A DNA stretch of 64,000 bases, taken from the NCBI GenBank assembly GCA_034190875.2, contig CM067357.1:23002644-23066643 (forward strand), read 5' to 3'. This document shows positions 1 to 57,010 of the stretch, one piece after another (positions within the stretch are counted from its first letter, which is position 1; each line of letters starts with the position of its first letter). The notes beneath the pieces are model-generated. The model saw only the letters and a list, made by a program, of their open reading frames with translations, was not told the DNA's origin and did no database searches. The translations under genes and the position numbers were made by a program. The DNA is from Urechis unicinctus. Taxonomy: Eukaryota; Annelida; Polychaeta; Xenopneusta; Urechidae.

Positions 1-1365
1 TCACAAGTGAAGGCGTGATACCGTAACATATATCTTGCTACATACTGTATAAGGATATAGTGCAAAAGGGTTAGTCTATAGCTTCGTACGCCCTCATAAC
101 ACTGCCTGGATATCAATCTGAACCCCTTGTATCTGCGTGACATTATACACCATCTTGGTGCTGACGGCTGACGCTTCCCGTCAATTATTATGTGATTTCA
201 ATATATGATTGCTTTTTGTAGCTCTCGTTGACACGGACGTTTCTGATGAAGGAGACAGTTAAACATATTCGTGATACATTTCCCTTGTCAAAAGCTCATT
301 CCACATGATTTTGTTTTTTCTACTGATGAAGTCGATGTTTCGAATATGCCAATTCGTTTGGCTTTTTTTGGCGACGCATTCACTACCTGCATTTCTATTA
401 AATTACGTGTCGTATTTATAATGTGTTATCAAAACGTCTCTAAATGGCACTTATTTAACGGATAGGCCAAGTCTTGAAATCCCGATCAATTATGTCGGTC
501 GAAAGCTCAGCTATAAAGTCATATATTAAAGACATGTTTCACGTCAAATGCTGCATAGTAGGTACCTATAATTGGATGTATAAAATGCTGTCGCAGATAG
601 AAATCACAGTGATGCCGGTGGGCGATAATCTAGTGACCTGCCTTATTAACTTGTATCGTCTCATTCAGCGAATTAAGTCATCCATGCATAATGCTGTCCG
701 TTGTCTTTTCTATCAAGACGATCTGCAGGCGTGTATCTCATCAAGTGGGTAATACTGTAACCAGCATCGCCCGTTTGGGCGCAGAATGACAACAACATGT
801 CAGAATGACATCCAGGATGTCAAATGACTATCAATATTGATGACTGAGTCATCAATAGTGAAGGCCATTACTGTTGACAACACTCGACCAACAGATATTA
901 ATCAAGGCCGTTGACTTCACCATATTTGATCTCTATATACACCCAGCGAGCGAAGATGAATGGTATACGTTCACATTTGCGTTAATAACAAAATTCACAT
1001 TTGATGATATAACGCTTGATAAAAGTTTATCTGACACTTCCGAAATTGTGTAAAATAATTATCAATGATTTTTGAAAGCGATTTTTCGGTTCAGGGGATC
1101 GCCAGACGTTACATAAAACTAAAACATGAAGCTATACGAATTGACCCTGTAACAAAATGAGTTTTAAATCTACATGGTACAAATTTATTTCACCTGGCGT
1201 CATCGTAGACTGCTGTGATGCTAAAAAGCTTTAATTAGCGAAAAAGCTGTTCTCTTGAAAAGCCTAAAAATGTGTTGTGCATTTGATTTTTTTCAAACAC
1301 ATTAGACATGAAACTACTATTGTTGTCGTACCACGCTTTATCTAAAAGATTCGTGGTTCTCCAAG
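1..1365 (+). repeat. Repeat family U, copy I (3' part of the unit)
   Basis: This block matches the reverse complement of 4785-6870. Positions 1-460 align with 6870-6430 and about 500-1365 with 5420-4785, so copy I lacks roughly 1 kb present in the other arm. Its first 300 bases also match 14400-14710 in the same orientation. The best stretch is around 655-745, where the two arms are nearly identical for 90 bases. Similarity fades after about 1365. It holds frames of 64 and 92 codons, but neither is kept intact in the other copies, so I do not call genes. It may be the decayed end of a mobile element or a segmental duplicate. Confidence 0.8.
835..857. other. Near-perfect palindrome kept in two repeat copies
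   Basis: Arms of 11 bases (tattgatgact / agtcatcaata) flank a single g. The core resembles an AP-1-like TGAGTCA site. The inverted copy at 5040-5060 keeps 8-base arms (attgatga / tcatcaat) around a five-base centre, so the symmetry survived divergence of the repeat. The function is unknown. Confidence 0.6.
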
Positions 1366-1879
1366 AGAAGCAACTGGACATCACGTTTTTCGGTTTCTTG
1401 TAAATAGTTGCGATAACACGCAGCGGATCGATTTCATGCATAATAGTTTCAATAAGATAATTGCATACAAATACTTATATTGACCCATATCAATCATATT
1501 GACTTTCCCAAAATAGAAGCGCGTAGCTTTGACGGACAGTAAATCATGGAGCAGGTTAAAAATTGATTTCGCTGAAGATCAATTCATCTATTATAAATCA
1601 ATGATGTCTTCATGGTATTGGTGGTATGTGGCTATGGTTCACGCTCTTGCTGCCTTGGCATCAAACATAACGCAATACATGATTTACATAATCAATAGGG
1701 CGTATAAAAAGGTTGCGCTGAGAAAGCCAATGATGCATTATGTTGACAAAAAGAGATACGCGCTGTTAATACATAATGTATGGTACGGTAGCTTTGGAAC
1801 ATTTCTCCGGCAACATCTATCAACTAAGTTAGTTTGCTGCCGCATTTGAATTCATGATTGCCCTTTGGAGAAATGAGTA
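1366..1879. other. Unassigned spacer between two family U copies
   Basis: No clear homology to the other U copies was found. A 106-codon frame (1529-1849, +) is within chance length. About 35 bases at 1735-1770 resemble 45193-45229, so a further diverged repeat may run through here. Confidence 0.4.
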
Positions 1880-4110
<2,231 letters not shown>

Positions 4111-4328
4111 TTATTATACTGCCGTACATGCTGAAAAGCATGGATATGTGCATGGCGCCGAATGATAAATAAACGCAGACTTTTTAATCGGTTTTCAGCT
4201 GCGGCCCAAATTATCATGGCAAATATCGGCGGCCTAGGGAGGGCCTTACTAGCATGGTAAGCAACTTGAGTTTGCTGCTATGTAAAGAGTCACAATGTGT
4301 AATTATGTAATGGCAAACCACACCCCAC

Positions 4329-4582
<254 letters not shown>

Positions 4583-4784
4583 AATATGTGAAAATATTAA
4601 TGAATTGTAAAGCTAACTGATCAAAAACGCAATGAATGCGCTCTACTTATTTAGTTACCTGCTGATCTCCAATAGAAATGGATACAAGCAATGTTGTGGT
4701 ATGGTAGGAATTGGAGCATGCAATCAATGAATAATAAACTTTATATCCGCAGATCTTCCATGAATTATTGTGATTTATTTTGAC

Positions 4785-7300
4785 AACCACGAATCTTTTA
4801 GATAAAGCATGGCACGACAACAATAGTCGTAAGAAATCGCTTACAAAATCATCTGTCATTAAAGCTGCAAGTCTTCTAGAGTGTCAGATAACATTACATC
4901 AATTATTATATAACCAAATATGTATTTGGTTATTAACGCAAAGGTAAACGTACATCATTCATCTTCTATCGCTGGGTAAATATAAAGTTCCAATATTGTA
5001 TCGGTCAGTCGAGTGTTGTCAGCTGTAATGTCCTTCAATATTGATGACTCGATCATCAATGTAAAGCGTCATTTTATTTCCCGGATGTAGTAACGAGTCA
5101 TGTTGTCATCATTCTGAGCACAATAGGCTGATGCTAGTAACCTAAATAAGAAATGGTATAACTAACTGGATGAGACAAACGCCTGCAGTTTAGGTTGATA
5201 GAAAAGACAACTGACAGCATTATACATTGATGACTTAATTCGCTGAATGAGAACATACAAGTCTATTGAATACAAGACAAACATAAGATGCAGTAGCAGG
5301 TCACTCGAGAGCATCACTGAGATTTCAAACTGCGGCCCCATAACAAACATCCAATTGTGACTATGTCATTAATAGTTACCTATTTGGAAGCATATAATGT
5401 GTTATGTTTATTAAATATGCCTTTATGGCCATGCGTTTAGACCCACGCAGCAACAATAGCTGCTGAATGTTTAGGTATGTTGAACAAGATCGACATATCG
5501 TTGGCTTTTAATAATCCCATTTTTGTAGTTATGTATTGGTGTGTGAGTGTGAGAAGCGATTCATTGATTTTACCATTATCTGATATTCGTATTGAGTTAT
5601 CAGTAAAAGCTGTCAAATACAACACAGTGCTAGAAAGTTGAAAGCTGTCGAATCAAACATTCAACGCAATCACGAAAGATTATTGATGCAGCATATGACA
5701 AAAATCATTGGTTCCATTCGTGTGATCAGCGCAGCAGGTGGCTCACACAAATCAATATATAATCTTAAGGATGAGGATATCGACTTTTACCTAACAGCTG
5801 CATATGCGTTCAGCCAGATACTTGTTTTACTGCACTTTCATACATGCTTGGTAAAGAGGCCAAGATTGAATCAATTGCTTGTAAACAGCATGCTATTAAG
5901 GTTCATAATAATTACCTCGATTGGTAATGGTTGCCATTGGACTGTTTACGCCTTGCAATGAGCATCGTAAGCTTTACAGCTGAGACGCTTGATTATGATT
6001 TTGATATTCACTGCGCCCACTAGCGCGTATTATTTTGTAAAATTGTTTAGCCTAAAAATCCACTGTTATCCGATCGCCTAATGCATCACATGGTAATAAA
6101 ATAGCTGATTAACCATAGAAAACTGACGCTCATAAAGATTGTGTCTCAAGCCTGCAGGCATATTAACCGAGCCAAACCGGAGCCATTCATTGTTAAAGCG
6201 CTTATCACGAAAATGACTAAATGGCCCTATCGTGACTGCAACCGGTACATGGTAAAGGTATTGTGGCTAATTTATCAGACACATTAGCTGAATGCGTGTA
6301 CTGGGGCTTGCAAAACTGCCTTACACATATACACAGTAGACGCCTCCACTAGTGGAGAGCAAATGTATGATTCGTGATACTAAGTAATTCGATAGGGAAT
6401 TCGAAACTCTGCTGATTCCGGGAGCTCAGTCTCAGGCGTGTTCACAACACATTATAAATGCGACACGTTATTAAATAGGAATGCAGGTTGTAAATACTTT
6501 ATAAACGTCGTACAAAAACCTGTGCAAAATAAGTATTACATATTCGGATAAAACAAAAATCTTCGCGAGGGAAGTGTCTTCGACAAGGCAAATGTATAGC
6601 AAATATTCATTACTAGCTCTTAGCATAATGTTACCGTGGCAAAGACACCTGCCAAAAACAATCATATATCTAAATATATCATGATAATTTACAGGAAGTA
6701 TCAACAGTAAGCACCATAATGGTGTATTACGCCAATCGAACTCAAGGGGCTCAGATTGATATCCAGGCAGCGCCATGAGGGCGTAAGTATCGAAGGACTA
6801 TACCTTTTTTACACTAAACGCTTTTAGGGTATATTGCAAGTTACATTTTACGTCATCACGCCTACACTTTTGATGTTACCCGAGGCTGTTATGAAAAACA
6901 GCTGATATCATAAATAATTTAAATCTTTAGCGCAACGAAAGTGTTTCTATCAATCATTGCTAATTATCTTTTGCGTTTACAAGAATAGTCATCAAGTTAG
7001 CTGCTACAGGTTTTAGTTATGCAGATTTTGTGCACCTAGTTGCTTGTGCTTGATATTAACTTATTGATTAGAAGAGCAATGTATATGTCAGTGTACACAG
7101 GTGTATGTATGTAAACCAGATAAGGTTCTCGATCCGATTTTTTCTCGCATTTTCTTTAATACGTGGTTATTCAAAGGATAGGTTTAAAGAAAGCACCGAT
7201 GTTAACCATCTCCGGGTTTGCCTAATAGAATGGAGGGAAGTGCTGCTTGGTACATCAAAGAGTTAGCTCTTGTATCCAGAATCCATAAATGTTGCCCGTG
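4785..7300 (-). repeat. Repeat family U, copy II (minus orientation)
   Basis: It is inverted relative to copy I (1-1365) and direct relative to copy III: 5340-5555 matches 8020-8215, 6070-7130 matches 8217-9310, and about 7080-7300 matches 9255-9480. The segment 5556-6068 has no counterpart in copy III, where the two ends meet at 8213-8217. That extra segment holds a 107-codon frame (5638-5961, +) with no recognised domain. Flanking 4581-4784 is unassigned. Confidence 0.85.
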
Positions 7301-8009
7301 CTTCTGTTCTGATGACGCCCTTAGTTCGCTGGAAACAGTACAGCTTTTGTCAGATAAACAGTGCAGTGTCTGATATTTTTAAACGCATGAAATAATCAAA
7401 TGTGAGCCTTGACCCCAATAGCTTACGAATCCGAATGCAAGCCTCGTGATGTATGTTTACGATCGGTTGTCTGTGTTTGAACCGGAAGAGCACGTTTAAC
7501 GATCAAAGCACGAGCTACAAGGTAATTTATGACAAACGCTGCAGAGATGTAGTCTCTTTGTACATCTGCCCACTTTTATGTCAGCCATAAACGGCAATGG
7601 GCTCGAAGATTCACAGGCTGATGCGCATGGATCCCAAGAAATAAAACCAACAGAATAATACCCACAGATATCTGCCGTCTATTTGTAAACAGCAGAGGTT
7701 CTCTAGATCCTTAAAGCAATTTTTTCAACTCTATCCATTCAACCATTATGATTGGACGTAAAGCGTCAACTATCTATTCACCAGTATTGCAAGTTCCATT
7801 CTATGAAGTCTTTAGCCATAGAAAAAGTTACATATTGTGACAATGAATACGACAGCAGACTCCAGTTGCGTTTCATGCCAAGAAAATACAAGGTCCAGCC
7901 CAAGACAAGCAAATAAGGTCCTAATCGCCTAATATAATATTGGCAAATGGGGCTGCATCTCAACACCAAATAAAAACTGTGTTAATTTATCGCCATTCAA
8001 ACAACGACA
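7301..8009. other. Unassigned spacer
   Basis: No convincing match to the other repeat copies was found, and no frame is longer than 63 codons. Nothing recognised. Confidence 0.4.
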
Positions 8010-9480
8010 ACATAGCACACATCCAATTGTAACATTGTCGTTAATAAGTATCTATTTTGCAGCAGATATTGCGAAATGTGTATAAAATATGTTTGTCTTG
8101 GTAGCTGTTTGTTTAGATCCAAATGTAGTGTGTAGAAAAAGATCGACAAATCTTAAGCCGATAAATATCCCTTTACGTAGCCATGTCTTGCTGTGTGAGT
8201 GTAAGAAGTGATTTCCTAATGCATCGCATGGTAATGAAGTAACTTGTTTTCCATGGAAAACTGACGCACATAAACCTGTGTCTCATATCTCCAGGCAAAT
8301 TAACAGAGCATAACCGGCGCCAGCATTGTTGAAAAGCATTGGGGGCGATCAGTAACAACGAATTACATGCACTTCAATCACTTATAGGCCCTATCGCGAC
8401 TGTAACAGCGTTGTGGCGAATGTATCAGACGCATAGGCTAAACGCCTGCATTGCAGTTTGAAAAACTGCCTAACAAATATGCATAGGCGCTGCCTCCACT
8501 AGCAAAGCACAAATGTATGATGCGTGACATTAAAAAATTCGATCCAGATTTCGAAACTCTGCCGATCCGGGAGCTCGGTGTCATCTATTTGAAGACCTTT
8601 GACAACGCATTATAAATACGAAGAGTTATGTAGTGAAAATACAGGTTGTGAATACCTAATAAACATCGCAACAGAAAGGCGGTGCAATCAATCCATAACA
8701 TAGTTGGAGGATCAATAACGTGAGTAGAAAAAGAAATTTTTTTTATGAGGAATGAGCTTTCGACAGGCCTAATGTAACAGAGATATTTATTACTAGCTTC
8801 GCTGAAACGTCCGCTTCGAAGAGAGCTAGCGAAAGCAGTCCCATATTTTATATCACATAATACTTGACGTGAAGCATCAACCGTCACTAAGGGATGGTGT
8901 ATGACGTCACGCGGATACAGGGGCTTAGACTGATAACATGACAGCGTTATGAGTAGCGATAGATTGCACCCTTTTACGTTATAAAATTTAGCAATATATA
9001 GCAAGATTTATTTTACGGCATCACGCCTTCAATTTTGAATGTAACCCGAGGCTGTGTGGAAAAGCAACTGATATCAGTTAACATAAACTGGGTGGCAACT
9101 TTAGCATAAAGAACGTGCTCCTGTCGTCATAGCTAATCATCTTTGGTGTTTACAAGAGGTGATCAAGTTAACTGCGACGGGTTCTACAGTTTTTGTAACC
9201 TAATTGTTTATGCTAGACATGAAGTTATTGATTAGAAGAGTAAAGTATTTGTCAACGCAAGCAAGCGATACATGAATGTATGTACAGCACAGCAGTTCAA
9301 TCCGCTAGCACTGCGTCATATTTTCTGCAGAAAAGTTAAAAGCAAGCACGGATGTGTATTTGTTATACATTTTAAGGATAACCTAATGGAATGGATAGAA
9401 TCGCTGTTTTGTACATAAATGCAATAGCTCTTGTAACCCAAGTCCATGCATCCGTTGACTGAATATTATGTTGCCCTTGC
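8010..9480 (-). repeat. Repeat family U, copy III (minus orientation)
   Basis: It is direct relative to copy II at an offset of about 2.1 kb, and inverted relative to copy I and to 14400-14950. The stretch 8545-8580 aligns with 6408-6435 and, on the other strand, with 14820-14845. A 139-codon minus-strand frame (8585-9004) overlaps this copy. Copy II has a shorter, shifted frame (6471-6776) at the matching place and copy I is not open, so coding is doubtful. Confidence 0.85.
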
Positions 9481-9749
9481 ATATCAGTATAAGGTGATTC
9501 GTGGCATACACTCTGCAAGAATTGTGTTACCTTGGTACAACAGCGTATCAATCAGTCTGTGTTTACTGGTAGCTACTTGCCTTAACTGATAAATAAACTG
9601 AAATTATGATCCATATCCATTAATCTACTTAAATTTGGGTACAAATCTCCTGGGTGATACGCATCTGGAGTCGTTTTATGAACGAGACTCCGTCATCAGC
9701 CCAATCAAAAAAATCTTGATCTATTGACAATATTGACTATGTGAAAAAT
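9481..9749. other. Unassigned spacer between opposite-facing U copies
   Basis: Nothing recognised. It lies between minus copy III and the plus-oriented fragment that begins near 9750. Confidence 0.35.
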
Positions 9750-10190
9750 ATGCTGCTCCATTTAATGTGCCATTGTTGCAATGCATATAAGAGTTTATTT
9801 CCTTCACCGATAACGATTACATAATTAACATCAGTTAAAATATTGCTTAATAACGGGCTCCGCAAATACGGCTCTTGCCAACAAGTATGTCTCTGTAACT
9901 GCGTTATTTCAGAGCTGTTCTTTTGCAGAATCACAGCGGAAATGTCGATATCATCGTTGTTATATCCAATTTTAGGGTTGGTTTGAATGGGCTGAGCTGC
10001 AAATCCGCATGACTTTATGTATAAGGTTTGACAAATCGAAGCAATAACTGTGGTATTATTTGGCTGGCCGTCACGGGGTGACCTTGAACTCCGGCTTCTC
10101 TTAGGCCTGCGATGAGCGATGCCGGACTATAAACCAGCTAAACCAATTTCAAATCATGGCTTATTCAGTCGTGTCGCAAGGATCTATCAA
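9750..10190 (+). repeat. Repeat family U, partial copy VIII
   Basis: It matches 11845-12130 in direct orientation and the reverse complement of 55150-55460. Landmarks are ggctgagctgcaaatc (9990-10005) and gaccttgaactcc (10080-10092). It is a third, partial copy of the central region of the unit. Confidence 0.7.
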
Positions 10191-10849
10191 CACAGCTCGC
10201 TTTCACCATTTCAGGTGGAAACGCCTTTCAGTATCTCATCCGTTAAATTCCTTAAATTTTATCAAACGTTCCCATATTAAACTCGTAGCGCGATTGAACT
10301 TAATGTGTTTATGAACATCTTCTGCAATGGTGCAACAACAAAAACAATTGTCATTCAAGACTGTCAGCTGTTTTTGATAAGTATCTCCTTAGGCAATATC
10401 TTTTGGCGTAAGATAATCGAGTATCAAATCCTCAAATGTAATTGCCATGATGAAATATTTGAAACGTATTGGATTGAAAAACGGGACGTAAATGACTCTC
10501 ATTGCTATTTATTCACCGCATCACAGCGTGGCACCCTCGAAATCACGATCTCGATTCGTTTTGCAGTAGTCCACTTTACATATCCGAAAATAGTGCACTA
10601 TATGTTTGTGAACAAAAATAAGTTGATCTTAATCGCATACTTTTCCAAACCAGGTGAGAGGAATCGGTAATATGAACATGAATTGTATTCTCAACAATGG
10701 CCACGGATCTCGTTAGTATTGCTTATTGCACTAGTAGATCATTGCATATCTCCAGGTAACAACCAGTTTTGTTATGATAACAACCAGTTTTGTTATGACA
10801 TGTATTACGTACGATAGTTTGAGGTAAAATATTCTTCCAAAAGCCTTGA
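10191..10849. other. Unassigned stretch with one chance-length frame
   Basis: A 121-codon frame (10305-10670, +) is open but matches no family I recognise. Several frames of this length are expected by chance in 64 kb of AT-rich DNA. A perfect 21-base tandem duplication lies at 10757-10798. Confidence 0.35.
10757..10798. repeat. Perfect 2 x 21-base tandem duplication
   Basis: The unit taacaaccagttttgttatg plus one a occurs twice, head to tail and identical. The lack of differences suggests a recent event compared with the surrounding old repeats. Confidence 0.9.
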
Positions 10850-12500
10850 CCTCAACTGTCACGCAAAACAATTCACTTAAACGCGCGATATTTTGCAGTG
10901 CGAGCATTGTTAGGATAACTTATTATATTGACCGCAACATTAAGAGTGACACTCATAGCTATGACAGAAGACTACCACAAACTACAAAGAAACGTGCTCT
11001 GACTCATGACTGTTACTTTTGTCAATTATTTTGCTATTGATTACCTCTGTATGATCACTTCATCGATTGTAATGTATCCGTATTTTAAGACGTTTACTAT
11101 AAGCAATTTTGGCTAACCCGTCGTTGTTGTCAATACTGGTATGCACCAAGGGTCGGTATCAGTCGAAATAAGTGTACTCCATTGTGATTCCAATATGATG
11201 AACAGATGTACATAATTTGGTCACATATTTACTCACAGCCGCATTACAAGTTCGATTACAAAGCTTGCATTGCGTTATTAAGATTTAATTACGTGGGTAT
11301 TTATCTTTATTCATACAGTGATAAAGTACTGCGGTGACCAGTGCGGACATAAGCTTAAGCCAAGCTGTCACCGCCGCTTTGATCTTTTTATATACCATTT
11401 AAGGGACATGATCCAATTAAGCAGAGAGCTAAATGACTTGTGTTGTAAAGGCGCATAGTTACCAATTATCACAAGCATCAATTCACTGACTCAAGTCGCA
11501 CGTCCAAAGAGTTACATGCAATCTGATCTGCTCTCACTCACAAATGATATATTCCAATTTTCATATGACACGCGAAAACAACAAACACAATCTGGTGGAA
11601 TATCAATACCAAGGCCTTATACAAAACACGGTGTGAATGATATGTGAACGGTGCGAGTGATATGTGATTATGTTGTGTTTGTAACGCTTATTAAGTTTTC
11701 TTTGCAAGCGTGTACAAATGAAAAAAAACGGTCATTATCGTCCAATGCAATTGCAGGCAAGCGATGATGGTCAGTTTATCTGCCATATATCTTGCAACGC
11801 ATACGTTTTTATCGGAATGAGAAGACTATCTGGGCCGCATGCGGTTTTTTTCCGACGCGTATTTATCTGTAATCGAAGTATACTAGAACTCTCCTATCCA
11901 AGAAGCACAACGTCAGTGTTATATCCAAATGCAGGGTTGATATGGGAGGGCTGAACTGCAAATCCGTTGAACCTGATGTATAATATGAAAACTCATTGAA
12001 ATGGCTGCTGACCTATATGATTGGTCATTTCTGACGGACCTTGAGCTGGGGTGCCTCGAGGCTGTGTAGGAGGGAAAAACCAGACTGTAAGCCTACTTGA
12101 CAATTCATTGCCTGTGGTTGATCAACGCTCTGCGGCACATTTCTCGATGTGATATATTTATAGATTAGAAAAAAAAATGATTTATAGCGATGTCGAAAAT
12201 ACACAACCGCACCGGAACATCGCATTGCGATGGACTTACGCATGGTTGTATGAGTTGTAATCAATCACAATTGAAAACTAAACAATGGTGTAAAGTCGCT
12301 TGTGGAAGCATTGTAAATAGTTCTTCGCACATATGGGAATGTTGAAATAGCTGATGGTAGCTTTTGGGGAAAAAGGAGTTGCGTTGGCTGAGACTTCATA
12401 ATGCCACTTACTGCAAATATAAATAATAACAAAACATGCCTTTTATTGCGGTAAAAATCGAAGCTTCACGACCAGTACCTAGCTGGTCTAATAACAAAGC
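10850..12500 (+). repeat. Repeat family U, copy IV, first part
   Basis: It matches the reverse complement of about 56510-54780. Landmarks are ttgaccgcaacatt (10928-10941), the string around 11150-11170, and ggctgaactgcaaatc (11949-11964). The match continues through 12050-12410 into sequence that copy VI also shares. Copy VI lacks the counterpart of 10850-12060. No conserved frame is visible. Confidence 0.8.
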
Positions 12501-13779
12501 TAATACTGAACATGACGCCGGAAGATGCACGGGATATAATTACCTATTTATGTCATTTTAATGAGTGCGACGACCACGTCCACAAATGTATATTGCCTTA
12601 TTAGATGTTGTTATTAAACATATGGTTAGGAAAGTTGTATATGATTTACAAATGCTACCATATGTGCATTTACTTGCATCAACATTTAATAATATATTTC
12701 TGATCCGAATATACGGAGCGATGTTTTTTTTTTTCCCCTCGCTGCCGACGTCGCACCACCAGCAACTTGATAAACTCTATGCCTCCCTTTGTAAACATAT
12801 TGATAACAACACGACTAAATGTTGACGGACATGATATGATGCAGGCACATTGACAGTGCTGAACAGGTAGTATATATTGTTTCAACACAAGTCTCAGGTA
12901 CCTTTGGTGGAACGATAATTAATCTAAGGTTAATGTTGTAGGCAACGATTTGCAGTCCAATTAATCAGTCAGGTAATTATTGAACTCTGAAGTCGTATAT
13001 TCCAAATTGATCGATGCGATTCCATTATTTGGCACCTAAAAAAGGTTCCAATGAAATCAAAAAATTGTGAACGCGATTAATATGGTGTTGCAATATAAAG
13101 CGTAAACCCTGCATTTTCGACGTTAACCCTAATGGTTAATACCTTTAAAATGCCAATCAATCTATGGATTCAAATTTTACCATTTGCTACATTAACGAGA
13201 ACAACGACATACAGTTGCTAAACGTATCATTTTACGTTATAATGGTGATTGCCAATAGCCGCTGCTAAGCAGTGTCACTTAAGATGCTGCAAACTTTGCA
13301 CCAAGGTTTCTGAGCCATTTACGACTAAGCCGACAATTTGCATGATTACTGTTTACAATATATAACAAATTATGTCGAAATGCTCGTGTTCTTCGACTCA
13401 CTTTCGTTTGTTTGTACATCGTGCATCTTAGTACAGTAATTTTTAACGACAACAGTCTTCTTTTAAAGCCGCCTCCCTGTGGCAATTGTTCTACATAACG
13501 GGATAAATGAAATGTCTAATTGTCACGGTGTATGGTGGTAGCAAGGCTTACATATGGCGGGCCAAGTGATCGCAGGTGACAACGCGTACTGAGCTGTGGA
13601 TGGCGGGGGCCTAATGTTTGCTCATTACAACAATTGCAACCATTTATACTGACATATTGCAATTCGGTTAAAATATTAGTTTCCATTTGTGCGATCACAT
13701 TACTACACAAACATTATAGACAGGACTGACCATAGCAAAAATAATGATGGCTACTCGTTGCAGCTAGGATATTTAGCCG
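12501..13779. other. Unassigned segment between the two parts of copy IV
   Basis: The corresponding interval of copy V (about 53780-54700) shows no alignment I can defend. The segment may therefore be inserted or too diverged. Frames up to 86 codons overlap on both strands and none is recognised. Confidence 0.4.
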
Positions 13780-14955
13780 AATATAATTCAATTGAGTCGT
13801 AAGCGAATAAGATTTCATTAAGCTTATTTTGGAGCAATTCGATTGGTTTGTTAAGGTCAAAGGTAGGAGGGTGGGAAGCATTCAAGGATACAATGGCTAG
13901 GGTTGTCAGTCGGTAGGTTTGATTTCTTGTGGATCACGAACACCAGTCAATCACCCTTTGCCGTATGTGGTTGAGCCGTTGTTACAAAATAACTACCATG
14001 CTCGTCAAAAGTGACCGTAGTGTACGCGGCATGTGTCTAGCATATACATCCCACACGGAAAATCATGTGTACTATCAGCTTTCATTAATTTTATGCTTTC
14101 TTATGTGTTGAAAAAATTAAGCTTAGTCAATGTTTTTTTGTTATTATTATTTCGATAGTTAGTCGCTACGCTGCAACAGGACGAAAGAAAACAAAAGCGA
14201 TTAAGTTATTGAAATAAATGCTCTTTATAATGTTCGTGTATGTAAACTGATTGTAGCTTCTGCCCCATTTGTTATTTAATGGCATGAAATATTAAGGGGA
14301 TGCCGCCGCCATGTTTAGAGATTTAATCTATCTGTCATTATATTTTTGCTTAATGTTTGCGATTGAGGGTTTGATGCGGTAAACTATAGCCTGACTATTT
14401 ACTATAAAAGCGTACTGTCTTACAGTTCGCACACCTTAATAACGCTTCCTGGATGATCGTCAATTCCAACTTTTGAATCCGGTTGACATTATAAATCCTT
14501 ACGGTGGCTGGCCGTTAATGTTTGCCTGTCAATAAAAACGTGAGTTTAAAGCTGAGTGATCAAAATGTGATTGCTTTTACTTTACTCTTCTTGACACAAG
14601 ACGCTTTGGATAAAAAAGCTATCAATTTATTAATGTGGTACATTAGCCTTGTCAAACGTTTATTATCGTCCATTGTGATTTTTAAGAAAGACGACCATCT
14701 GTTTCTGCGATGATTTGTTATGCAATATTGGCATATTTATTTTGCCACGTCTACATTGCATACGCCACAAGGATTTGCAGTGAATCAAGGATGATATTAC
14801 AAATGTGCTGTCAATAATATCCGAGCTGCAGGATTGACAAATTGTGATCGAGAAGTTTTATGCCAAGCATCATATATTTACGCTTTGCATTGGATGTTTA
14901 TAAAGCAGTTTATCAAACTTCAATTGTTTTGGAAGCTACAAACTATATCTTTGTT
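13780..14955 (+). repeat. Repeat family U, copy IV, second part
   Basis: It is co-linear with the reverse complement of 53770-52640. The stretch 13925-14000 matches 53650-53575 at about 85-90%, and 14700-14880 matches 52920-52740. Its 14400-14710 part also matches 75-320 of copy I, and 14816-14920 matches the reverse complement of 8580-8440. This is what joins the two sub-groups of U into one unit. Confidence 0.85.
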
Positions 14956-16859
14956 TAGTTAATGTATCAGATACAATTGCTGTTTCTATTTCGCTTGTAG
15001 ATGCAGTACAAGGTGAGTGTGTCAAAAACGTACCATGACTTCCCAGAAAAAGTGAAGATTACCAAAGTTCAGAGCAAAATGTGGCGTGTCCATCATGAAA
15101 ACTGTCCTCCAAGTCGCAGTCAGTCGTCGATAGCTGTGACCCCAAAGACCACATCCTTTTCCATTGCATTATATGATAAGTGCAGGTGTAATATGCCCCA
15201 TTCTCCTATTCATTAATGCATACGCCCGAATTCGGCAATATATTAGCTGTTCGTGTCATGTGCTAACTTCTGTCTACATATTATGAAATTGTGCCACTCT
15301 AACATATTTATATTGAAGGAAAACTTACATCAAAAATTTGAATGGATTTCCATTTGTTTGTTCCATCATTTTTTACCATAGTAGAGACATATTTCCTTTC
15401 CTCAAATAACATCCTATCATTAAACGCAGAGAAGTTGAAAACATTGTTAGCTGCCTCACTTTTGGTACGGACCATCAATGAACTCATCACCCTCATCAGC
15501 CACACCGATTGATCGTCATATGTTGCGGTTGTTTGTTTATGTTTGGAAATGTATGTTTTATTACAATTGGTGGTTTTGTGATACTTGTAAACTATTTTGA
15601 TGGAATGGCACTTTATAGAACTAATGCATTCTACCTGTTTATGAATCAACCACTTGATAATTGCGGATAATTGATACATTTGTCGCGTTTAAAGTTCATA
15701 ACCTTCTAACCAAATATGGGTGTTTGTTTAACCTAATTTGGTTTCACAATACGTATGTTTAAAAGCGTACTTGAAAACGGTAGCCACACAACTCCCATTG
15801 GGCTATTACACATCCTTTATCCTACGAAATGATTATACCAAGATGATGTCTTCTAACAGGAAACATACAATCACTATGCAAGACGCAAATTTTGAAAATA
15901 GTATGCATTGTTTATTACAGTGGCACATCTCTATCACTTTAATTTAACTCCCCCCCCCGTAAGAGTTAAATTCATCGAAAACCGCGACGAAAATTAGAAT
16001 TTCTTGGCACAATTCATTTCGAAGATGTTTTATATCATTTGAGAGGTGGGCAAACTTTGAACATTAACGAAACCCCACCCTATGTTTAATGCATGGAATG
16101 GGGCATGAATGATAAATTGCTGAGAGAATTCATAGTCTTACAAACTGTTGGTTTGGGTGCAGCGACTGTTGGCACTGTATATCGGCTGCGAAATCAGTTC
16201 CATATAACAACAACGGATACCTCATATCTGCGCGTAACATAAAATTGTGTGCAAATTCGGTGAACTTAATGATACAATAGAGAATCGAAAAGAAAGTATG
16301 ATGTGCTGGCAACTTGTAATTTTGTCTGATTTTTATGATACAAGTGCCTTATCAATAAAATTTAGCTGGAAGAGAAAATCACTATTTTGACAACTGTTGG
16401 CGTGATACACGGTAGGCGATGTCCTTGGTCCCAGTAGACGATACGAAGTCAGAACCGTTGTCTCCTTCAGAACTATGAAAATCGCTCTGCTATTGAATAT
16501 TAATGCGGTTCTATATATATATATCAAAATGTAATGACTTGCTCAAAATGTGTTTGCAGTAAAAGGAGGAAAATCAACCAACATTCATCTCGCCGTCACT
16601 ATGCTTTCTGGTGAAATTTGGTTATATAGTAATAAACGATTAATATATATTGTACAGCAACAGGTTGAATGCTCAAAGCTTTCTCGATCAGCACTATATT
16701 TGACCGAAACGTTGTCTCCATAATAAAGAAATGCCCCTTAATGTATATGTATATTACAACGTGCAATCCGAACAATGCTTTAATCAGGTATGTGCAAATC
16801 GATATTGTTCATATAGTTTACAGGTCAATGGATAAGAAGAAGCTCAATAATATAAGCCT
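14956..16859. other. Unassigned stretch with a small hairpin
   Basis: No repeat match or recognised protein was found. The longest frame is 123 codons (15308-15679, -), which is chance length. The only structure I noted is the poly-C hairpin at 15941-15972. Confidence 0.4.
15941..15972. other. Perfect 10-base inverted repeat around a poly-C loop
   Basis: The arms aatttaactc (15941-15950) and gagttaaatt (15963-15972) flank a 12-base loop that is mostly C. Nine C run from 15950 to 15958. It could extrude as a hairpin or be a remnant of a tiny palindromic element. Confidence 0.75.
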
Positions 16860-17075
16860 AATGAAAGCCAACTATAAAAGCAATTTTTATAAGTAAAAAA
16901 AAACGTTTCGGTATTTAGCAAGGACTTATGGTTGCATGTAAATATAGTGATAGTGAAGTTTATGTACGACCGGCGGATAGTGAAGTTTATGGACGACCAA
17001 AATACTGCAATGCATACCGGCTGGTACATTGATGCATTGTAGCCATTTATGCTTACGATCGGTCTACGCAAAATC
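16860..17075 (-). repeat. Repeat family U, copy VI, distal fragment
   Basis: It matches 53765-53980 of copy V in direct orientation. Landmarks are the string at 17020-17035 and tttatgcttacgatcggt. It is separated from the rest of copy VI by about 800 bases absent from copy V. Confidence 0.75.
16949..16998. repeat. Local 23-base tandem duplication
   Basis: Units at 16949-16971 and 16976-16998 start gatagtgaagtttatg and differ at one base, with a period of 27. It lies inside the U fragment. Copy V has a single, more diverged version near 53880. Confidence 0.85.
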
Positions 17076-17889
17076 TTCAGCATGTAAATAAGCAAGGTGG
17101 ATATATCTCCCTAAAACGATAATAGATTGACGTACCTCGCAGGACTGCAAATATGGGTCTACGGTCCCGAGGCTGTCAACCGGTACGGAGAAGATGAGGT
17201 GGCATTCGTGTATTACGAAACATAACCTCGAGGGGGTCCATCATGGCGATAACGCGGGTGATCTGTGGTGGGGTTTTGTACCCTGTTCCACAAATATCAA
17301 TTGCCCACGATGACATGTAGCATAAACTGGTTTGAGAGAACGATTTTTCTGGACGATGTGACAGAGACTATATATAACACGGTAAGTAGATATAATCTGT
17401 AACTATATCATAATGTACACATGGGGTTGATTTGTGAGCATGATAGGAGTTGGCTAGGTACACAGAGAGGGCATAGCTACTTGATTAATGCGACCATGAT
17501 CGTAACATATTTTTGCAGATTAGGTAATGTCTCGTCGTTTCATATCATATGAACGAATACAATGTAAACATATATACATAAACATATACCGATTTAGCAG
17601 CTGTATCAGAATGCATCATTTATGAGCAAACATATATGAATATGGTACCGGATTGAGTTTCGCAAGGCACCAGAGATGATTCAACACTCTATATTACCTT
17701 ATGCATACGTGCGTTTATGCTATATATGTTAGGTGTTACTCAGGTTTGTTTTCCCCACCTATGCTATCCCAAACGAATGCGTTCTCTCGATCAATCACAC
17801 TAACCGAGGTCAAGGTATAATTTGCAATGTGTTAACGTACGACCAAGTATGTTGACATCAGCTGAGTATCTATATATGCTCTCAGGCAG
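17076..17889. other. Segment of copy VI absent from copy V
   Basis: Both flanks align to adjacent sequence in copy V (53980 and 54140), so about 800 bases here are extra or have been replaced. The first 250 bases are visibly richer in G+C than the surroundings. I found no terminal repeats, target duplication or frame of note. Confidence 0.45.
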
Positions 17890-20860
17890 TGTGTTTACAA
17901 TATGCATCTGGGTAAGCCCGCCACGAGGTCATCATCCAAAGGCCGGGGGACTGCGAATTCGATTTCACGTAGGTTTAAGCAACTAAGTCAAATATATCTG
18001 TAATTTATGAGTTAAGTCCTTTCAGCTATTTTGCTGTCAAAGGTCCTTTCAACATGCATTGAGCGTCTGAGTGCACTTCTAGGGTATGAGCCATGCTTAA
18101 CAAATGGCTAAATAATGAAGCCGGAGATGATTAGCACCCATGGATACTGATGTATTGTAGATGATCCTAAATACAGCCATCGCTATGTGAACATGACAAA
18201 AGCCTGGAGGACAGAATAAAAGATACTATCCCTTTGTTACCCACCAGAGGACTGTCGAGACAACAACAAAACCAACGTTAATTGAATCTTACGCCTAAAC
18301 TCGATAGACATCATGTATTTGTTATTCATTTGACCATATATGACCTGGAGTAATTTCATTTAGTATAAACTCATATATGCATGGTTTGCCTATTTTAGCT
18401 CCAATTGCTACGACAATTCCAGCTCATGCTTTGCGATGACATATTTATTTTGTGGCAGTAAATATCATCATTAACATTCGGCTATGGCAAATCCTTGTTT
18501 CCCAATATTATCCTCAGCACCCAGTTTATTTAAAATCTCAAAAAATTCGTACAAAAAAAAACTAACGTCAGTCAATACAACATTTCCTTGGTTGTGACAA
18601 CGAACCATTCTTATTGATTCCGTAAGTACATGCACCTCCTTGCTGAAGTTGTAACTGTTATTGCTTCATCAGCATACACGTTTGCGCTTTCTCGTAATAG
18701 CTGCAATCCATTTGGATGTAAATATGTTATTTCATTTATGTACTCACTCAAGGAATATGTCAAAGCTAAAATATTTTTTATGTGCAACCGAGAGCTGATA
18801 AACAATAAGTGGCAATTTGTTAAGCAGGATTCCAGTCCGGTTTCTTTATTGACTTAAAATGCAATATCAATAACGTTTTGTATGGAATGTTATGTCCCAA
18901 ATCTGCCTGTAGTTGTCTTCAAAGCAATATCAGTAATGGATGGATTCAACTGTGTGTAAAACTGTTATTAATATAAGTAAGATACCTGAGATACTGCCAG
19001 TAGATAGATATTTTAGAGCATCATTCCGTTGGTTATATATCCGAGGAGCCATGTGCATCAGCCGATGAATCTTTCGAGTACATGTCTGACATAAAAGAGA
19101 CGACATCTTTACCGTGCATTTCATAAATTACTTTGCTGTTCGTGCTTTGTTAGCTAAACGTGACCTCCCGGGACCGAACCATCCAATCTATCATTAACGT
19201 ACAGCTCGAAGCTTGCATTTGTATGTGTGAGTTAAGATGAATCAAGGTTCTTATTAGAATATTTCATGCATCGTAACATAACAGGCTGTGCCATGTGTAC
19301 GTGACCAAAGGTGCACTTTTCCAGCGAAGTAAGGAACAAAGAAGCTTCTGTCTTACAGGTAATATGAGTCAATCGTAGATGGTTTGCTGGTAACCTCGAT
19401 ATTTGCCAACAACATTGGCAGAGTTTGTTGCTGCAACGACAATAAGACAAGTGTGTCTCATTAAGACAAGGGACATAGTTCAGAATATGTTGCAATTACA
19501 ATACCGGATAGATAAATCGCATGTTAACATATAGCTGTAACTGCCCTGCTACACCTACGTTACCCAGCGTAGGCTAAAAAGCTCAAGGATAGATACAATA
19601 GCGCTTGCATAGCAGCTCCAAGTTACCATCGTTAAACGATTGATGTTGCCTGTACAGAGGTCATTCACTTATTACATTGCACTGTTCAAGATAATTTGTG
19701 ACATGTAATGCGCAGAATGTACCATTATCAAATCAATCATAGACCATCGCTTACGTAGCTGATTAAAGGCCTGACCCCCCTAGTTCACCACAACTAAAGC
19801 AAACGAGATGATCCATCAGCCAATGCACCACACATTGTAGTTTTAAACCTTCCGAATTATATATGAGGGTAGTACCTGTCTGTATGATAAAATGTGTTAT
19901 ATGCCTGCGCAAAGCAATATCACCTTTCATCAAACTTTGAATGTTGCAAAGAAAGCTTGCTATCGTGATATAATAGTGAATTCTACTGCAACAGTGAACT
20001 CATTGTATTGCAACGATGTATTGTACTGCAAAGATGTATTTTACAACAGCTAGCTGCAGACACAACTAAGCTCGTTATCGCACAAGACAGATAGGTTGTT
20101 TACGAAACAGACGTGCCACAAAGGTAGCGAAAAATAGAAGTAAGAGGGGGTCGTCAATATTAAACTGTTCCTTCTACCAGTGACAAATTAACCGGGTATT
20201 CATTGTGCAAATACATTATTACAATTATATACTGGACATGGTATAGCTAGAGCATCGACACATCTGTAACGTCTACCGAGCAACAGGGAACCGATAGACA
20301 ATTGGGTACAACACATGAATATTTGCGTTTAGCGGATGTGATTTCCCCACTTTAATGAAACGAGTAACTGATATTAATGATAACCAGATAAAAAGATGGT
20401 GAATGGTACAGTTATACAATACCAGCGTACGCATGCCATGGTGGTGAATGTAGCTGCCTTAATACATATCTAGATGTTTCAGGTTTATAAGTAGGCTGGG
20501 GGTTGTTTACCAACACACCGTAATTATTGCTGAATTCACCTTCCCCCCTAAAATGGCGAATCCATCTACAGGAATATTGCCATTAGTTACCATAATTTCG
20601 ACCACGGTATGTGCGCTGTGTAATGAGCCATCAGTATTCCACCTTTTGCCAGTTGCATACCTTTATAATAAATAAGCAAACACGTATCACCAAATCACGA
20701 CTTTTTGTTTCGCCCACACCTGGGGCGGTCGTTATACGTCTTAAGGATATTCGCAGGGGAACGCAGAGAGGTTACGCAGTCGAGTTCACTTACGATGGGG
20801 ACCAATATAGAAGATAACTTGTCAAAAAGCAAGCAAAATATTAACGAACCTGTCGCGCGG
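17890..20860 (-). repeat. Repeat family U, copy VI (longest continuous copy)
   Basis: Positions 17890-18840 align directly with 54140-55190, and 18895-19380 with 56540-57000. Positions 19330-20860 align, reversed, with 4110-1880. It thus bridges the part seen in copy VII and the parts seen in copies IV and V. It lacks the 1.3-kb central segment present in copy V (55195-56505). It also keeps a short tract (complement of cctctctgcg, 20762-20771) where copy VII has a 700-base microsatellite. Overlapping frames are not kept between copies. Confidence 0.85.
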
Positions 20861-21287: not shown

Positions 21288-21620
21288 CTAATGTTTATAA
21301 ACGAACTCTAAGATGCAATGTTCATGAAGGCTGACTATAGTTGAAATATGTATTGTTCTAAAACATAAGTCGACATGAATATTAAATTCAACTCTACTTA
21401 TGTATCTTGATGCATGATATTGTAATGTTATTGTGTGTTTTAAGATGATTGGTATTGCGTTACTCCAAGTTAATATGCCGTAAGTTAAATGTGGTTGTAT
21501 TATTGCAATATATATGGTTTTTCGGGGTTTTAGGTGGTTTATCGTGTTTCGCTTCAACGTGAGCAACCCTTTGCATTTGTTTATGTAAATGTTGGACACG
21601 AGATCAATGAGGAAATATGT
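21288..21620 (-). pseudogene. Non-LTR retrotransposon reverse transcriptase, 3' fragment
   Basis: The 103-residue frame (21288-21599) shows the C-terminal pattern of jockey/CR1-like reverse transcriptases. First comes a short lead with GLLTLKR, then an aromatic and aliphatic helix leading to QPHLTYGILTW (about residues 35-45). After that come LQ..A.R.I (about 59-66), an H about ten residues later, and a closing hydrophobic block ending in FVYK. The frame continues upstream for about eight codons to a stop at about 21623-21625. The polymerase core and endonuclease are not visible upstream, so this is a short, dead 3' relic. The family identification rests on motif pattern only. It is the best evidence that the host is an animal or a related eukaryote. 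Confidence 0.75.
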
Positions 21621-21745
21621 TCTTATCTAACAATAATTACAACAATTATACCAACACAACAACACATCATAATCTATTGGTAATTTTGTGAGATAGCAAA
21701 CAATTCTATCTAAAAAAATACGAGAGTCAGTGGACCGTTCGATGG

Positions 21746-30694: not shown

Positions 30695-31680
30695 TTACAT
30701 CATCAAGCACTATCAGCAGAGCTATTACTCAATTGTTTCGTGGAGCCGTGAAAGATTTGCAATAAGCCATTTTTAATTGCGAAAACATGGACTACATTGC
30801 GGCGAGTACTACCAGCTCAATATATGAGCCACATGGGTGGTCAGAGTGATTTTCCTCAATGTGTCTCTGTAGATTTCTATTAAAACTGGGGTGATATCAT
30901 AACAGGTGCGTTAGTCTGGCCTCATGACGCAGGAATTCATGGATTAACAATCCACTGTTGTAATTAACTGTTGTTTAAAGAACATTGAGCTTTGGAAAAC
31001 TGTAGTAACATAGTTGTGAAATAGGATTTTTTACGACAATACCACTCACTGTAGAGGTAAATTTGGCACCGTGTTTGTTTTCTTGTATGAGCTTGCTCTC
31101 ATATAAATAGACAGAACTTATTGCCGAATTCGTGCTTTAATATTAATGCCAATGAATTAGGTACAAGCAATAAGTGCTAGCTGCAGGCGTTGACATACAA
31201 TGATTGGTATTCCCTGAAAACCATCTCTCCGCGAAAATTCTGATATGACTTTGAGAATTGTTTATATGGAACAGTTATAAGTTAACAGGCGTTTATGCTA
31301 GCAATATATATGCTGAGCACAAAAAACGGCTCTTGCAAATATATAAATTATGCGTTATTTTTGTGCCTGCTAATATTCTGCGCAGATAAGAGGCGCCTTT
31401 ATAGGCGTTCCGGTGATACAGACCAACTACCGCGACATTAAGATCGTCATTATCTCATTACAGAAGCAATGAGGATAAATAACTCATCGCCAAACAACCC
31501 AAATGTTTTATCCAAAAATGTTTAATCCCCTAGGTGCAATCACATTACCAAACACATTTATGCATTGAATAAAAATAAATGATAAATGTCGAAGCGTTGA
31601 GCGTTAATAGCACCATAACCTTTGTGCCTATTGGATATATCACGCCAAAGTGTTGGGTAATCATTTGATATCATCGTGTA
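30695..31680 (+). repeat. Repeat family W, copy 1
   Basis: It matches 49080-49760 in direct orientation: agcactatcagcagagct at 30707-30724 with 49086-49103, and the stretch around 30805-30825 with 49212-49232. Its latter part (31330-31640) also matches 50090-50380. There is no recognised coding content. Confidence 0.7.
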
Positions 31681-38122: not shown

Positions 38123-38222
38123 NNNNNNNNNNNNNNNNNNNNNNNNNNNNNNNNNNNNNNNNNNNNNNNNNNNNNNNNNNNNNNNNNNNNNNNNNNNNNN
38201 NNNNNNNNNNNNNNNNNNNNNN
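38123..38222. other. Assembly gap of exactly 100 N
   Basis: A round 100-base run of N is the usual placeholder for a scaffold join of unknown size. The two sides need not be adjacent in the genome, and frames crossing it are meaningless. Confidence 0.98.
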
Positions 38223-52639: not shown

Positions 52640-55600
52640 TCATTCCGGGCAAATATAGTTTGTAGCCTCCAAAACCATTGGAGTTTAATAAACTGCCTTA
52701 TAACCAGATAAAGATGACGCAACCTTTAACAAGTGTAAATATATGATGCTTGACGTAAAATTATTCGACCAGAATATGCCAATGTGTCAATCCGGCAGCT
52801 CGGATATTATTGACATCCATTTCGTGGCGAATACAATGTAGACGTGGGAAAATAAATGTGCCAACATTGCATCATATATCATCGCAGAAAACAGAAGGTC
52901 GCCTTTATCAAGAATCATTATGGAAGATAATAAATGTTTGACAAGGCTAATGTACTACAGATGTATATTGATAGTTGTTTAATCTAAAGCGCCCTGTGTA
53001 AAAAGAGTAAAGTAAAAGCAATCACATTTTGATAACTCAGCTTTAATCCCACGTTGTCATTGACCGGCAAACATTATCGACCAGCAACAAAGAGGATTTA
53101 CAATGTCAACCGGATTCAAAAGTTAGGATGGTTGATAATCCAGAAAGCGTTATGAAGGTGTACGAGCTGAAAGACAGTACGCTTTTATAGCAGATAGTCA
53201 GGCTATAGTTTGCTGCATCACAACTTCAATCGCAAAAATTAAGCAAAAATGTAATAACAAATAGATTAGATCTCGAAATTTGGCGGCGTCATCCCCAGAA
53301 TATTTCATGCCATTAGATAACCACTAGGGCAGAAGCTAGAAGAATTTACCATACACAAGCATTATAAAGAGCAGTTATTTCAATAACTTAATCGCTTTAG
53401 TTTTCTTTCGTCCTGTTATAGCGTAGCGACTAACTATTGAAATAATAATAACAAAAATTATTGTCTTAGCTAAATGTATTCATTCCATAAGAAAGCATAA
53501 AATTAATTTTGTCGTGTGAGATGTATATGCAGGGCACATACCACGTACACTAAGGTCGCTTCTGACATACATGGTAGTTATTTTGTAACAACGGCTCAAC
53601 CACATAAGGCAACGGGGTTTTAATTGACTGGTGTTTGTGATCCACAAGAAATCAAAACTACTGATTGTCAACCCTGGCCATTGTATCTATGAATGCCCCC
53701 CTCCACCCACTTTTGACCTTTACAAACCAATCGAATCGCTCCAATATAAGCTTAGTGAAAGCGAACTCTAAGAGCAATCTTTATAAGTTAGCGTGAGTTT
53801 CGGTATGATTTATCAAGACCGTATGGTTTTATGTAAATATAGTGCACTCAAACGAAGATTGTAGAATAAATATGCTGACGGATAGTAAAGTCTGTGGCCG
53901 ATGAAACTACTCCATTGTAGACCAGCTAGTACATGGATGCATTGTTGTTATTTATGCTTAAGATCGGTATCATATAAACACCTCATGCTTCATTTCTTTC
54001 ATAATGCACTTTACAATTACCACAAAGTCATATTAAGCAATGACAACCAATCTCAGAGGCAATCAGGAGCAAGTTGGCACGACTTCGGTATAGGCTAAAT
54101 GTTTTTACTGACGACAAGTGCTGTGATTAATAAAGGTGCACATTTTGGGTGAGTCAGCTACGAGGTTTTCATCTAAAGGCCAGGGGATTGCAGGGTTCGT
54201 TTCATGTATGATAAACTGACTCAAATATATCTCTTCAAATATATCTCATTTATTTAGGAGTATGATCGCTTCATGTATCTTGCCGTTAAGGTCTTGTTAA
54301 CGTACATAGAGTGGCTGAGTGTCCTTCAAGGGCATGAGTCATGCTTATCAGACGGCTAAATAAGCAGCCACAGATTCTGAAGTATTGCCGTTGATCCTAA
54401 TTATAGCCATCGCATGGCAAACGCCCGGTGAACAAAGGTTACTTACACACATTGTCATTGTCAGTGCATCTGGTACAATATGCATATGTCCTGTTCTTAT
54501 CCACCACAAGACTGTTTAGCCATCAACAAAACATAAGTTGTTAGTATCATAAGTCCATACTCGGACGGCATCATTTTGAAATCTTGCAATTTGTGTTCTT
54601 TCTAGCTGTAGGCTAATTTTCCCAATTAGGCTAACTGTTCCCTATATATCGTTATGATTTGTTTACAACCAATTATTTGCTGCCCTACTTTAGCCTCTAA
54701 TACATACGTTTTTGTTATTTACTAAGCAATATATGACCCGGAGTTATTCCATTCAATATAAACAAGATATGTAACGTTCGCTTCTTTTTGCTTCGATTGG
54801 TAGAGATTAACTCTGTTGCAGTAGATGGCATCATTAACACTCAGCTATGGAGACTCCCTTTTTTCCCATCCAATATTCAGCTCCCAAGTTATTCAAAGTC
54901 ATTCCAAAATAGTAGAATAAAACGCTATTACATCATTTTCTTTGTTGTTACAATGAACCATTTACTGTGGTTTCGTAAGCGACCTTACCTCAGTGTCTAC
55001 TTTTCAACTGTTATTGTTTTGTCAGCATACACGGTTGCGTATCATCTAAATAGCTGCAGTCAATTGGGGTGCAAATATATAATTACATTTACGTACATCA
55101 CTGAGAATATGTCGAAGCAATAATGTTATTCATGTGCAACCGAGAGTTGATAAACCATAAGTGGTAATTTGTTTAGCAGGAATACAGTCTGGTTCCTCTT
55201 TCTGTACACCCTCGAGTTACCCCAGTTCAAGGTCCGTTAGATTTAACCGACCATATAAGCCACCAGCAATTTAATCGAGTTATCATATTATACATCAGGT
55301 TTTTTTAGATTTGCAGCTCAGCCCACCTAAATCATTCCTAAATATTTACGTTATGCTTCTGTGATGTGTAAGTTCTGGTATGCTGCAATGTGCTCTTTGA
55401 TTACAGAGAAATACATGTCAGCAAGAGCCACATGCGTCACAGGTCATCCCCACTTTCCGATACAAAAGTATGCGTTAGAATGATGCAGCCCAACAAATTG
55501 GCACATACGATGTTGCAAGAGTTATGGCAGATATATCGACCATCAATACTTGCATAGGTATGCATTGCACGATATTGTCATATTTCACATTTGTAAACTA

Positions 55601-57010
55601 AAACGGAATATTTTTACAAATTATTACAAAAACAACAGACGCACATATGATTCTCCCATTCACAAAAGACTTTTGTTTTGATGTTCCACGAAACTGTGTT
55701 TGTTGTTTACGCATATCATATAAAAAATGCAAAATTCCATTCGTGGGTAAATCGCGACATGCTTTGTCATAATCAAATTGTATGGGCGTGCGGTTGAAAT
55801 TCAAGAGCCTTTTGGAAGCCGAAGTCATGTTGCTTGTTTCAATCTATCTTGTAAATGGTACTTCAAGCGTTCAAAGCGGCAGTGACTGCATGGTTTAAGA
55901 TTATGGCCTCGCTTGTCACCGCTGTAATTTCTTCATGTATATAAAACGATAAATGTATCAACCCTAGGCCTAAGCGATTGAGGCTTAATTGTGCAACGCT
56001 TGTTTTGTAATCGAACTTGTAATGCTGGACATAAAATGAGGACCTATTTATGTCTATCTGGTTACCACATTGGCGTAAAAATGACGTACACTTAATTCGA
56101 CTCATACCGACCCTAGGTGCATAAAAGTATTGACAACATAATGGGTTAAGCAAGTTTTGCTAATAGTTAACATCAGTTTGTACGGATATATAAATGTCGA
56201 TGGAATGATAATAGATATATAATCAGCATCGAAATGGTTGAAAATACTAACGGTCATCGATCAGAGCACGCTTTGTTTTCGTCTGTCATTGCTATGCGGG
56301 CCACTCTAAATGTTGCGGTCAAAACAATAAGCTCATCTAACATTGCTCGCATCGTATGTCTTTCACATTTATCATGCATCGCTAAATGATCATTTAATTG
56401 TGTGGAGAATGTGATGTAAGATTAAAGTTAACAAAATATTGCGCGGTTTTGGGTATTTTGGGAAGTCCGTGATTTGTTTCGCGTGATAATTGAATTAAAT
56501 TGCAATTATCATCGAATTTTTGCTAGTGAAATAATGTCTGGCTTTCTCTCGAATCTGCCGGTTGTTGTCTTCAAAGCAGTATCGGTTATGGATAGAATCG
56601 ATAGCTGGGAAGACTATAAATAGGCAACAGAAACTTTTGGGTATCATTCCGTTAGTTTTATATCTAGAGAGCCGTGTGCGTCAGCCTATGAATCTCTAGA
56701 GCCCATTGCCGTTTATGACTGACATAAAAAGGGGCCCATTGTTCAAAGACACTACATATTTACATGCCATAAATAACCTTGCAGCTCGTGCTTTGTTGGC
56801 TAAACGTGCTCTCCCGGGGCTGAAACAGACAATCTATCATCAATGAACAGCTTGATGCTTACATTTGGATTCGTAAGTTTTAGATGAGTCAAGGCTCTTA
56901 TTAGAATTTTTCATGTAATAAAAAATAACAGACCCTGCAATGTCTACGTGGCTAAACCTGTACATTTTCCAGTGAAGTAAGGAACTAAAAAGATTTATCA
57001 GGTTGCCAAT
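52640..57010 (-). repeat. Repeat family U, copy V (nearly 4.4 kb)
   Basis: Reversed, it follows copy IV: 52640-53770 with 14955-13780, and 54780-56510 with 12420-10850. Direct, it follows copy VI: 53765-53980 with 16860-17075, 54140-55190 with 17890-18840, and 56540-57000 with 18895-19380. The central part (about 55195-56505) is missing from copy VI but present in copy IV. No frame is conserved across copies, so I see no coding content. Confidence 0.85.

Follow-up and report, generated by a model that had tools for sequence, protein, structure and literature searches.

A mosaic of old, non-coding and probably mobile repeats in a 64-kb stretch of the Urechis unicinctus genome

Repeat blocks, their borders and their distances

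The stretch of DNA analysed here, referred to as the window, comprises 64,000 nucleotides from Urechis unicinctus (assembly GCA_034190875.2, CM067357.1, positions 23,002,644 to 23,066,643 of the forward strand). Diverged repeats occupy much of its first 21 kb and reappear at 52.6-57.0 kb, and this region is probably a nest of mobile elements that are old, non-coding and non-autonomous. The blocks can be sorted into three modules or families at the least, and probably four, designated E1, E2L, E2core and E3. Such elements would have inserted at different times and in both orientations, often adjoining or inside one another, would have been copied by proteins encoded elsewhere, and would then have decayed through point mutation, deletion and microsatellite growth. 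The feature is real but ordinary, a mosaic of old repeats in which end-to-end abutments are the sole mildly unusual point. The window as a whole has a G+C content of about 38%, a single gap of 100 N (38123-38222), a CpG observed/expected ratio of 0.94 outside microsatellites, and no non-repetitive reading frame above 177 codons from stop to stop. It appears to be a repeat-rich, gene-poor part of an invertebrate-like eukaryotic genome.

A preliminary description of this DNA had reported repeat blocks in both orientations that fill the first 21 kb and recur at 52.6-57.0 kb, and had named self-alignment as a check. Alignment of the microsatellite-masked window with itself (E<=0.01) did reveal significant similarity between blocks. 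It returned 35 non-trivial matches, 25 of which lie wholly inside 1-20.9 kb and 52.6-57.0 kb; 24 of these join two blocks, the other being a palindrome of 47 bp (823-869). When the whole window was resampled five times with an order-1 Markov model per 2-kb block, the match counts were 0, 0, 0, 1 and 0. Aligned blocks are 57-84% identical and occur in both orientations, the exceptions being two short linking pieces of 49 bp (86%) and 52 bp (90%). The repeats are thus real, but 'fills' is too strong: according to a block list compiled by hand from the self-alignment and a profile search, they cover 13,159 of 20,860 bases in the first 21 kb and 3,981 of 4,359 in the distal part. Module profiles had no matches at 21-52 kb up to E 0.1; the sole profile match in that interval (E 0.078) was to a profile built on spacer sequence without matches.

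E2core illustrates the borders of the modules. Three of its copies stop within 13 bp of one point (alignment ends 56995/19347, 56982/7319 and 19334/7319), and their last 17 bases, at 7319, 19318 and 56966, fit TTTCCAGYGAASTAAGG, a pattern composed from those same three copies. Flanks past this end are unrelated, with 190, 109 and 109 of 200 shuffles scoring as high. A common end followed by unrelated flanks is as expected of discrete elements. Copy b alone continues past the common end, into a copy of E3 that adjoins it directly, head-to-tail, at 19335/19336. The other copy of E3 begins at the matching E2core/E3 border, and the sequence flanking it there is unrelated (119 of 200 shuffles scored equally high). 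In copy a, E2L passes into E2core unbroken; the match of E2L copy c stops at 13813 and that of E2core copy b starts at 16849, both within 18 bp of the E2L/E2core border in copy a. Taken together, five copy ends at two borders lie within about 20 bp of points where another copy runs on.

Adjoining modules also differ in divergence. Between copies a and c, the Kimura two-parameter (K80) distance is 0.161 in E2L and 0.334 in the E2core part (Fisher p 5.6e-14), which implies different histories, or different homogenisation or constraint. The distances fall into two classes, with E2L and the E3 pair (0.140) in one and the remaining comparisons within E1, E2, S and Q (0.26-0.46) in the other, the exception among E1 distances being a 52-bp end at 0.10; because local alignments inflate identity, all of these values are only relative.

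The preliminary description had linked blocks through 14400-14950, and that link holds. The segment concerned (52.6-53.2 and 14.4-14.95 kb) contains S, about 550 bp inside E2L copy a (52676-53230), which is common to E1 and E2L; in a profile search it matched E1 copies at 8449-9033 (E 8e-30), 431-5 on the minus strand (E 7e-23) and 6301-6866 (E 8e-21). To the right of S, E1 and E2L do not match in register: two of three comparisons were at shuffle level and the third (z 4.5) lies mostly past the E2L end. All copies are collected in Table 1.

Table 1. Positions of the module copies and of a minor repeat in the window
Feature	Position	Strand	Remarks
E2L copy a, 1.1 kb module	52646..53760	+	79.5% to 14948-13813(-) over 52653-53760, K80 0.161; first 7 bases by eye
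E2L copy c	13813..14955	-	14948-13813 by alignment; outer 7 bases by eye
E2core copy a, 3.2 kb, most complete	53743..56986	+	Self-alignment, profiles; right end uncertain by about 10 bp
E2core copy b	16849..19335	+	Without the part matching 55197-56489; unmatched sequence at 17067-17845
E2core copy c, partial	10894..12467	-	10899-12351 vs 56351-54924: 63.9%, 1,534 columns; 12350-12465 matches 18518-18397
E2core fragment d	9865..10164	-	Matches 55150-55429
E2core copy e, right end only	7319..7687	-	75.9% to 56982-56615; end coincides with copies a, b
E3 copy a	19336..20852	+	83.5% to 4098-2673(-); to 20817 via match to 1968-1920; 20818-20852 by eye
E3 copy b	1918..4098	-	Broken by GA-rich array and about 70 unique bases, 1969-2672
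E1 copy A	4781..7300	+	Extra segment about 5562-6064, not in B or C; right end 7294 by alignment, rest by eye
E1 copy B, left-truncated	7996..9480	+	Right end 9457 by alignment, rest by eye
E1 copy C, cut by window edge	1..1364	-	Extra 228 bp at about 1085-1312
Q, minor repeat adjoining E1 copy B	7812..7994	+	nhmmer E 5e-7 and 1e-7; alignment z 15
Q partner	4317-4160	-	Same comparison

Within E3, copy a reads GGGGAACGCAGAGAGGTTACGC, and it is at the CAGAGAG stretch that copy b carries the GA-rich array, about 630 bp long, with the unique bases on one side; the counterpart in copy a is a short CAGAGAG seed at 20757-20772. Either a microsatellite grown in place from the short seed or a tailed insertion would explain the array, and the microsatellite in this copy illustrates decay at work. 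Over the left 52 bp of E1 (4781-4830 and 1364-1313), copies A and C share 90% identity, against about 68% by alignment columns for the remainder; these 52 bp can fold into small hairpins, whose stability is unremarkable. Inside E2, 53438-53666 and 56640-56913 show a weak inverted similarity (nhmmer E 7.5e-6; z 8.1, 1.0 and 2.6 in three alignments); its unequal distances from the ends rule it out as a terminal repeat. Elsewhere in the window, a separate inverted repeat pair (36453-36923 on the plus strand, 48284-47816 on the minus strand) is 79.6% identical, with a K80 of 0.19, near the E3 and E2L pair distances. A short direct repeat (49427-49624 and 50087-50290, about 660 bp apart, 74.6% identical) has weak matches to a third site at 31354-31499.

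Coding and RNA content

Of the 410 reading frames of at least 50 amino acids in the window, 349 passed filters for low complexity and N. The Pfam scan took in every one of the 138 retained frames of 1-21.7 and 52.4-58 kb, together with the 150 longest of the remaining 211. The best match among the 138 regional frames had an E-value of 0.0036, judged to be chance for 138 scans. The region, except for 1-4769, 7313-9399, 19003-19329 and the minus strand of E3, was also scanned as whole frames with X at stops; the best match (E 0.019) did not reach the curated cut-off. Mismatches in ten copy pairs (one run twice) showed no significant codon phase; for the largest imbalance, 21/23/37 in E2core a/e, a hand calculation gave a chi-square of about 5.6 (p about 0.06), and the highest value in a sliding window was 6.1, uncorrected. 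Gaps in multiples of three made up under half in every pair (to illustrate, 16 of 40 in E2core a/c). Identity is uneven within alignments, ranging in E3 from 56 to 96% per 50 columns, with no clear exon pattern by eye. The lack of a significant codon phase, the gap lengths and the want of an evident exon pattern disfavour a decayed tandem gene family.

A degenerate autonomous transposon or virus-like element was likewise considered, and the Pfam scans, over the frames covered, recovered no coding remnants of one. The statement in the preliminary description that no transposase, polymerase or conserved frame is visible agrees with the Pfam scans and with the ten pairs, which show no significant three-base phase. 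Its suggestion of a giant dead transposon does not fare as well, since family scans and substitution phase gave no coding trace. Rfam returned no match at the gathering threshold, and all 42 weaker matches fell in simple repeats; no transfer RNA was detected. Two exact patterns, a search that would reveal close copies only, had no matches among IMG/VR viral contigs. A frame of 112 amino acids at 21291-21626 on the minus strand resembles by eye the C-terminal part of a non-LTR (long terminal repeat) retrotransposon reverse transcriptase (PHLTYGILTWSN); Pfam and PDB gave no match to it.

Copy ends and known element classes

Several observations weigh against a nest of mobile elements. In the four copies tested (E2 copy a, E1 copy A and E3 copies a and b, in that order throughout), whose end positions are uncertain by several bases, target duplications were at shuffle level, with 128, 223, 174 and 361 of 500 shuffles as high. 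The same is true of inverted matches between the 100-bp ends (301, 262, 211 and 225 of 500) and of direct repeats of the 400-bp ends (15, 93, 83 and 100 of 100). The left and right ends of E1, the left end of E2L and the right end of E3 are known from two copies only; they are weak evidence, showing no more than a stop of homology in one copy, because a shared end is automatic with two copies. For the E1 flanks the scores are borderline, being reached in 7 and 11 of 200 shuffles. In copy c, the E2core part (12467-10894) comes after E2L across 1.3 kb of unmatched sequence, with order and strand as in copy a; this suggests that the two modules may have formed a single element in that copy. Finally, no autonomous partner emerged, and mobility, like the action of outside proteins, is something that we infer. 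At the present divergence, loss of terminal repeats and target duplications by decay is expected. The preliminary description had looked to shared termini and target duplications as support for a mobile element; three E2core copies do share an end, and target duplications were not found in the four copies tested.

A derivative of a terminal-inverted-repeat DNA transposon found no support, as neither the inverted repeats nor the target duplication was found in these four copies; decay could have removed both. HINE/DINE-1 elements, as characterised in PMC4067079, have subterminal inverted repeats of 12-15 bp, a conserved hairpin near the 3' end and T/T insertion without target duplication, and the same source gives canonical Helitrons a 5' TC, a 3' CTRR and insertion between A and T. 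The present modules resemble HINE/DINE-1 in being non-coding, in showing no target duplication and in having microsatellites in or near copies, but the analysis recovered neither the subterminal inverted repeats nor a conserved hairpin at the 3' end. By eye, T flanks occur at some ends only, and no CTRR end appears among the sequences inspected, the ends not being known to the base. Hairpins at the E1 left end were equalled in stability by 5.4% (copy A) and 1.6% (copy C) of 28-base background windows, and those at the E2L left end by 1.4% (copy a) and 30% (copy c); for 52-base windows of the E1 end the figure was 6.7% in both copies.

LTR elements carry two direct terminal repeats around one internal region, and their large non-coding derivatives are termed LARDs (large retrotransposon derivatives). 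Like LARDs, the repeats extend over multiple kilobases without genes, and E3 stands right after E2core, as a 3' LTR would. Unlike in LARDs, no module was found on both sides of another in the manner of an LTR pair, no E3 pair surrounds one E2core, and direct terminal repeats were not found in the four copies tested. The modules are also like the unclassified interspersed repeats of animal genomes, of the kind reported by de novo repeat finders, which are also non-coding, diverged, nested, present in both orientations and without diagnostic termini. No tested feature sets the present modules apart from these, although the modules do abut at common borders. We leave the modules unclassified as to superfamily; the terminal features that define HINEs, LTR derivatives and inverted-repeat transposons were not found in the copies tested.

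Competing explanations

The preliminary description had favoured one ancestral unit of several kilobases. In its most explicit form, this would be a tandem or circular unit of about 7.5-8 kb, fragmented by deletion and inversion, with the order S - E2L right part - E2core - E3 - about 555 bp - E1 left part - S; we regard it as doubtful, and less likely than a nest of elements. The main same-strand adjacencies do fit one circular order, namely E2L-E2core in copy a (and in copy c across the unmatched 1.3 kb), E2core-E3 in copy b, E3-E1 in 4098-1, and E1 left part-S in copies A, B and C. However, the direct E2L-E2core and E2core-E3 joins, like the succession of E1 after E3, occur a single time each, and five copy ends fall at two of these borders. 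Twelve random breaks in a 7.9-kb unit, a crude model framed after the pattern was seen, gave a triple within 15 bp plus a pair within 25 bp in 0.05% of simulations. In addition, the sequence after S differs between E1 and E2L, and E2L and E2core lie at unequal distances within one copy pair. What survives of the original interpretation is a set of repeats that lie in both orientations, are diverged and non-coding, and were probably mobile; the single unit is unsupported, given that copy ends meet module borders and that adjoining modules of one copy pair differ in distance.

An origin of the blocks in ordinary DNA, intergenic or intronic, that underwent segmental duplication and inversion locally, with no mobile elements involved, is rather improbable. 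It would account for all copies lying in one window (the sole sequence searched), for both orientations, and for terminal repeats and target duplications not being found; it sits poorly with an E2core end common to three different contexts, with coinciding breaks, and with adjoining modules at unequal distances. Distinctly unlikely is a modular family whose members insert preferentially at each other's ends, or recombine at short common border blocks (about 18 bp at E2L/E2core), so that the modules come to stand in a single fixed circular order, as composites that have neither terminal repeats nor target duplications and no known enzyme. Least probable of all are Helentron-associated (HINE-like), non-autonomous rolling-circle elements, which would tend to insert end to end. 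The head-to-tail abutment at 19335/19336, the missing target duplication and true terminal inverted repeat, and the weak hairpins at the left ends of E1 and of E2L copy a would all suit them. Nevertheless, those hairpins are equalled by 1.4-5.4% of background windows though each is the best of 14 placements, the E2L hairpin is absent in copy c, subterminal inverted repeats were not found, and the Pfam scans made gave no Rep or helicase match.

A nest of old, probably mobile elements, in an ordinary repeat-rich and gene-poor setting, has a practical consequence for annotation: since the blocks have the look of several old repeats without coding content, as opposed to one giant element, each module should be masked and classified separately. 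Should the end-to-end joins prove to recur across the genome, they would indicate a preference in insertion or recombination that deserves study.

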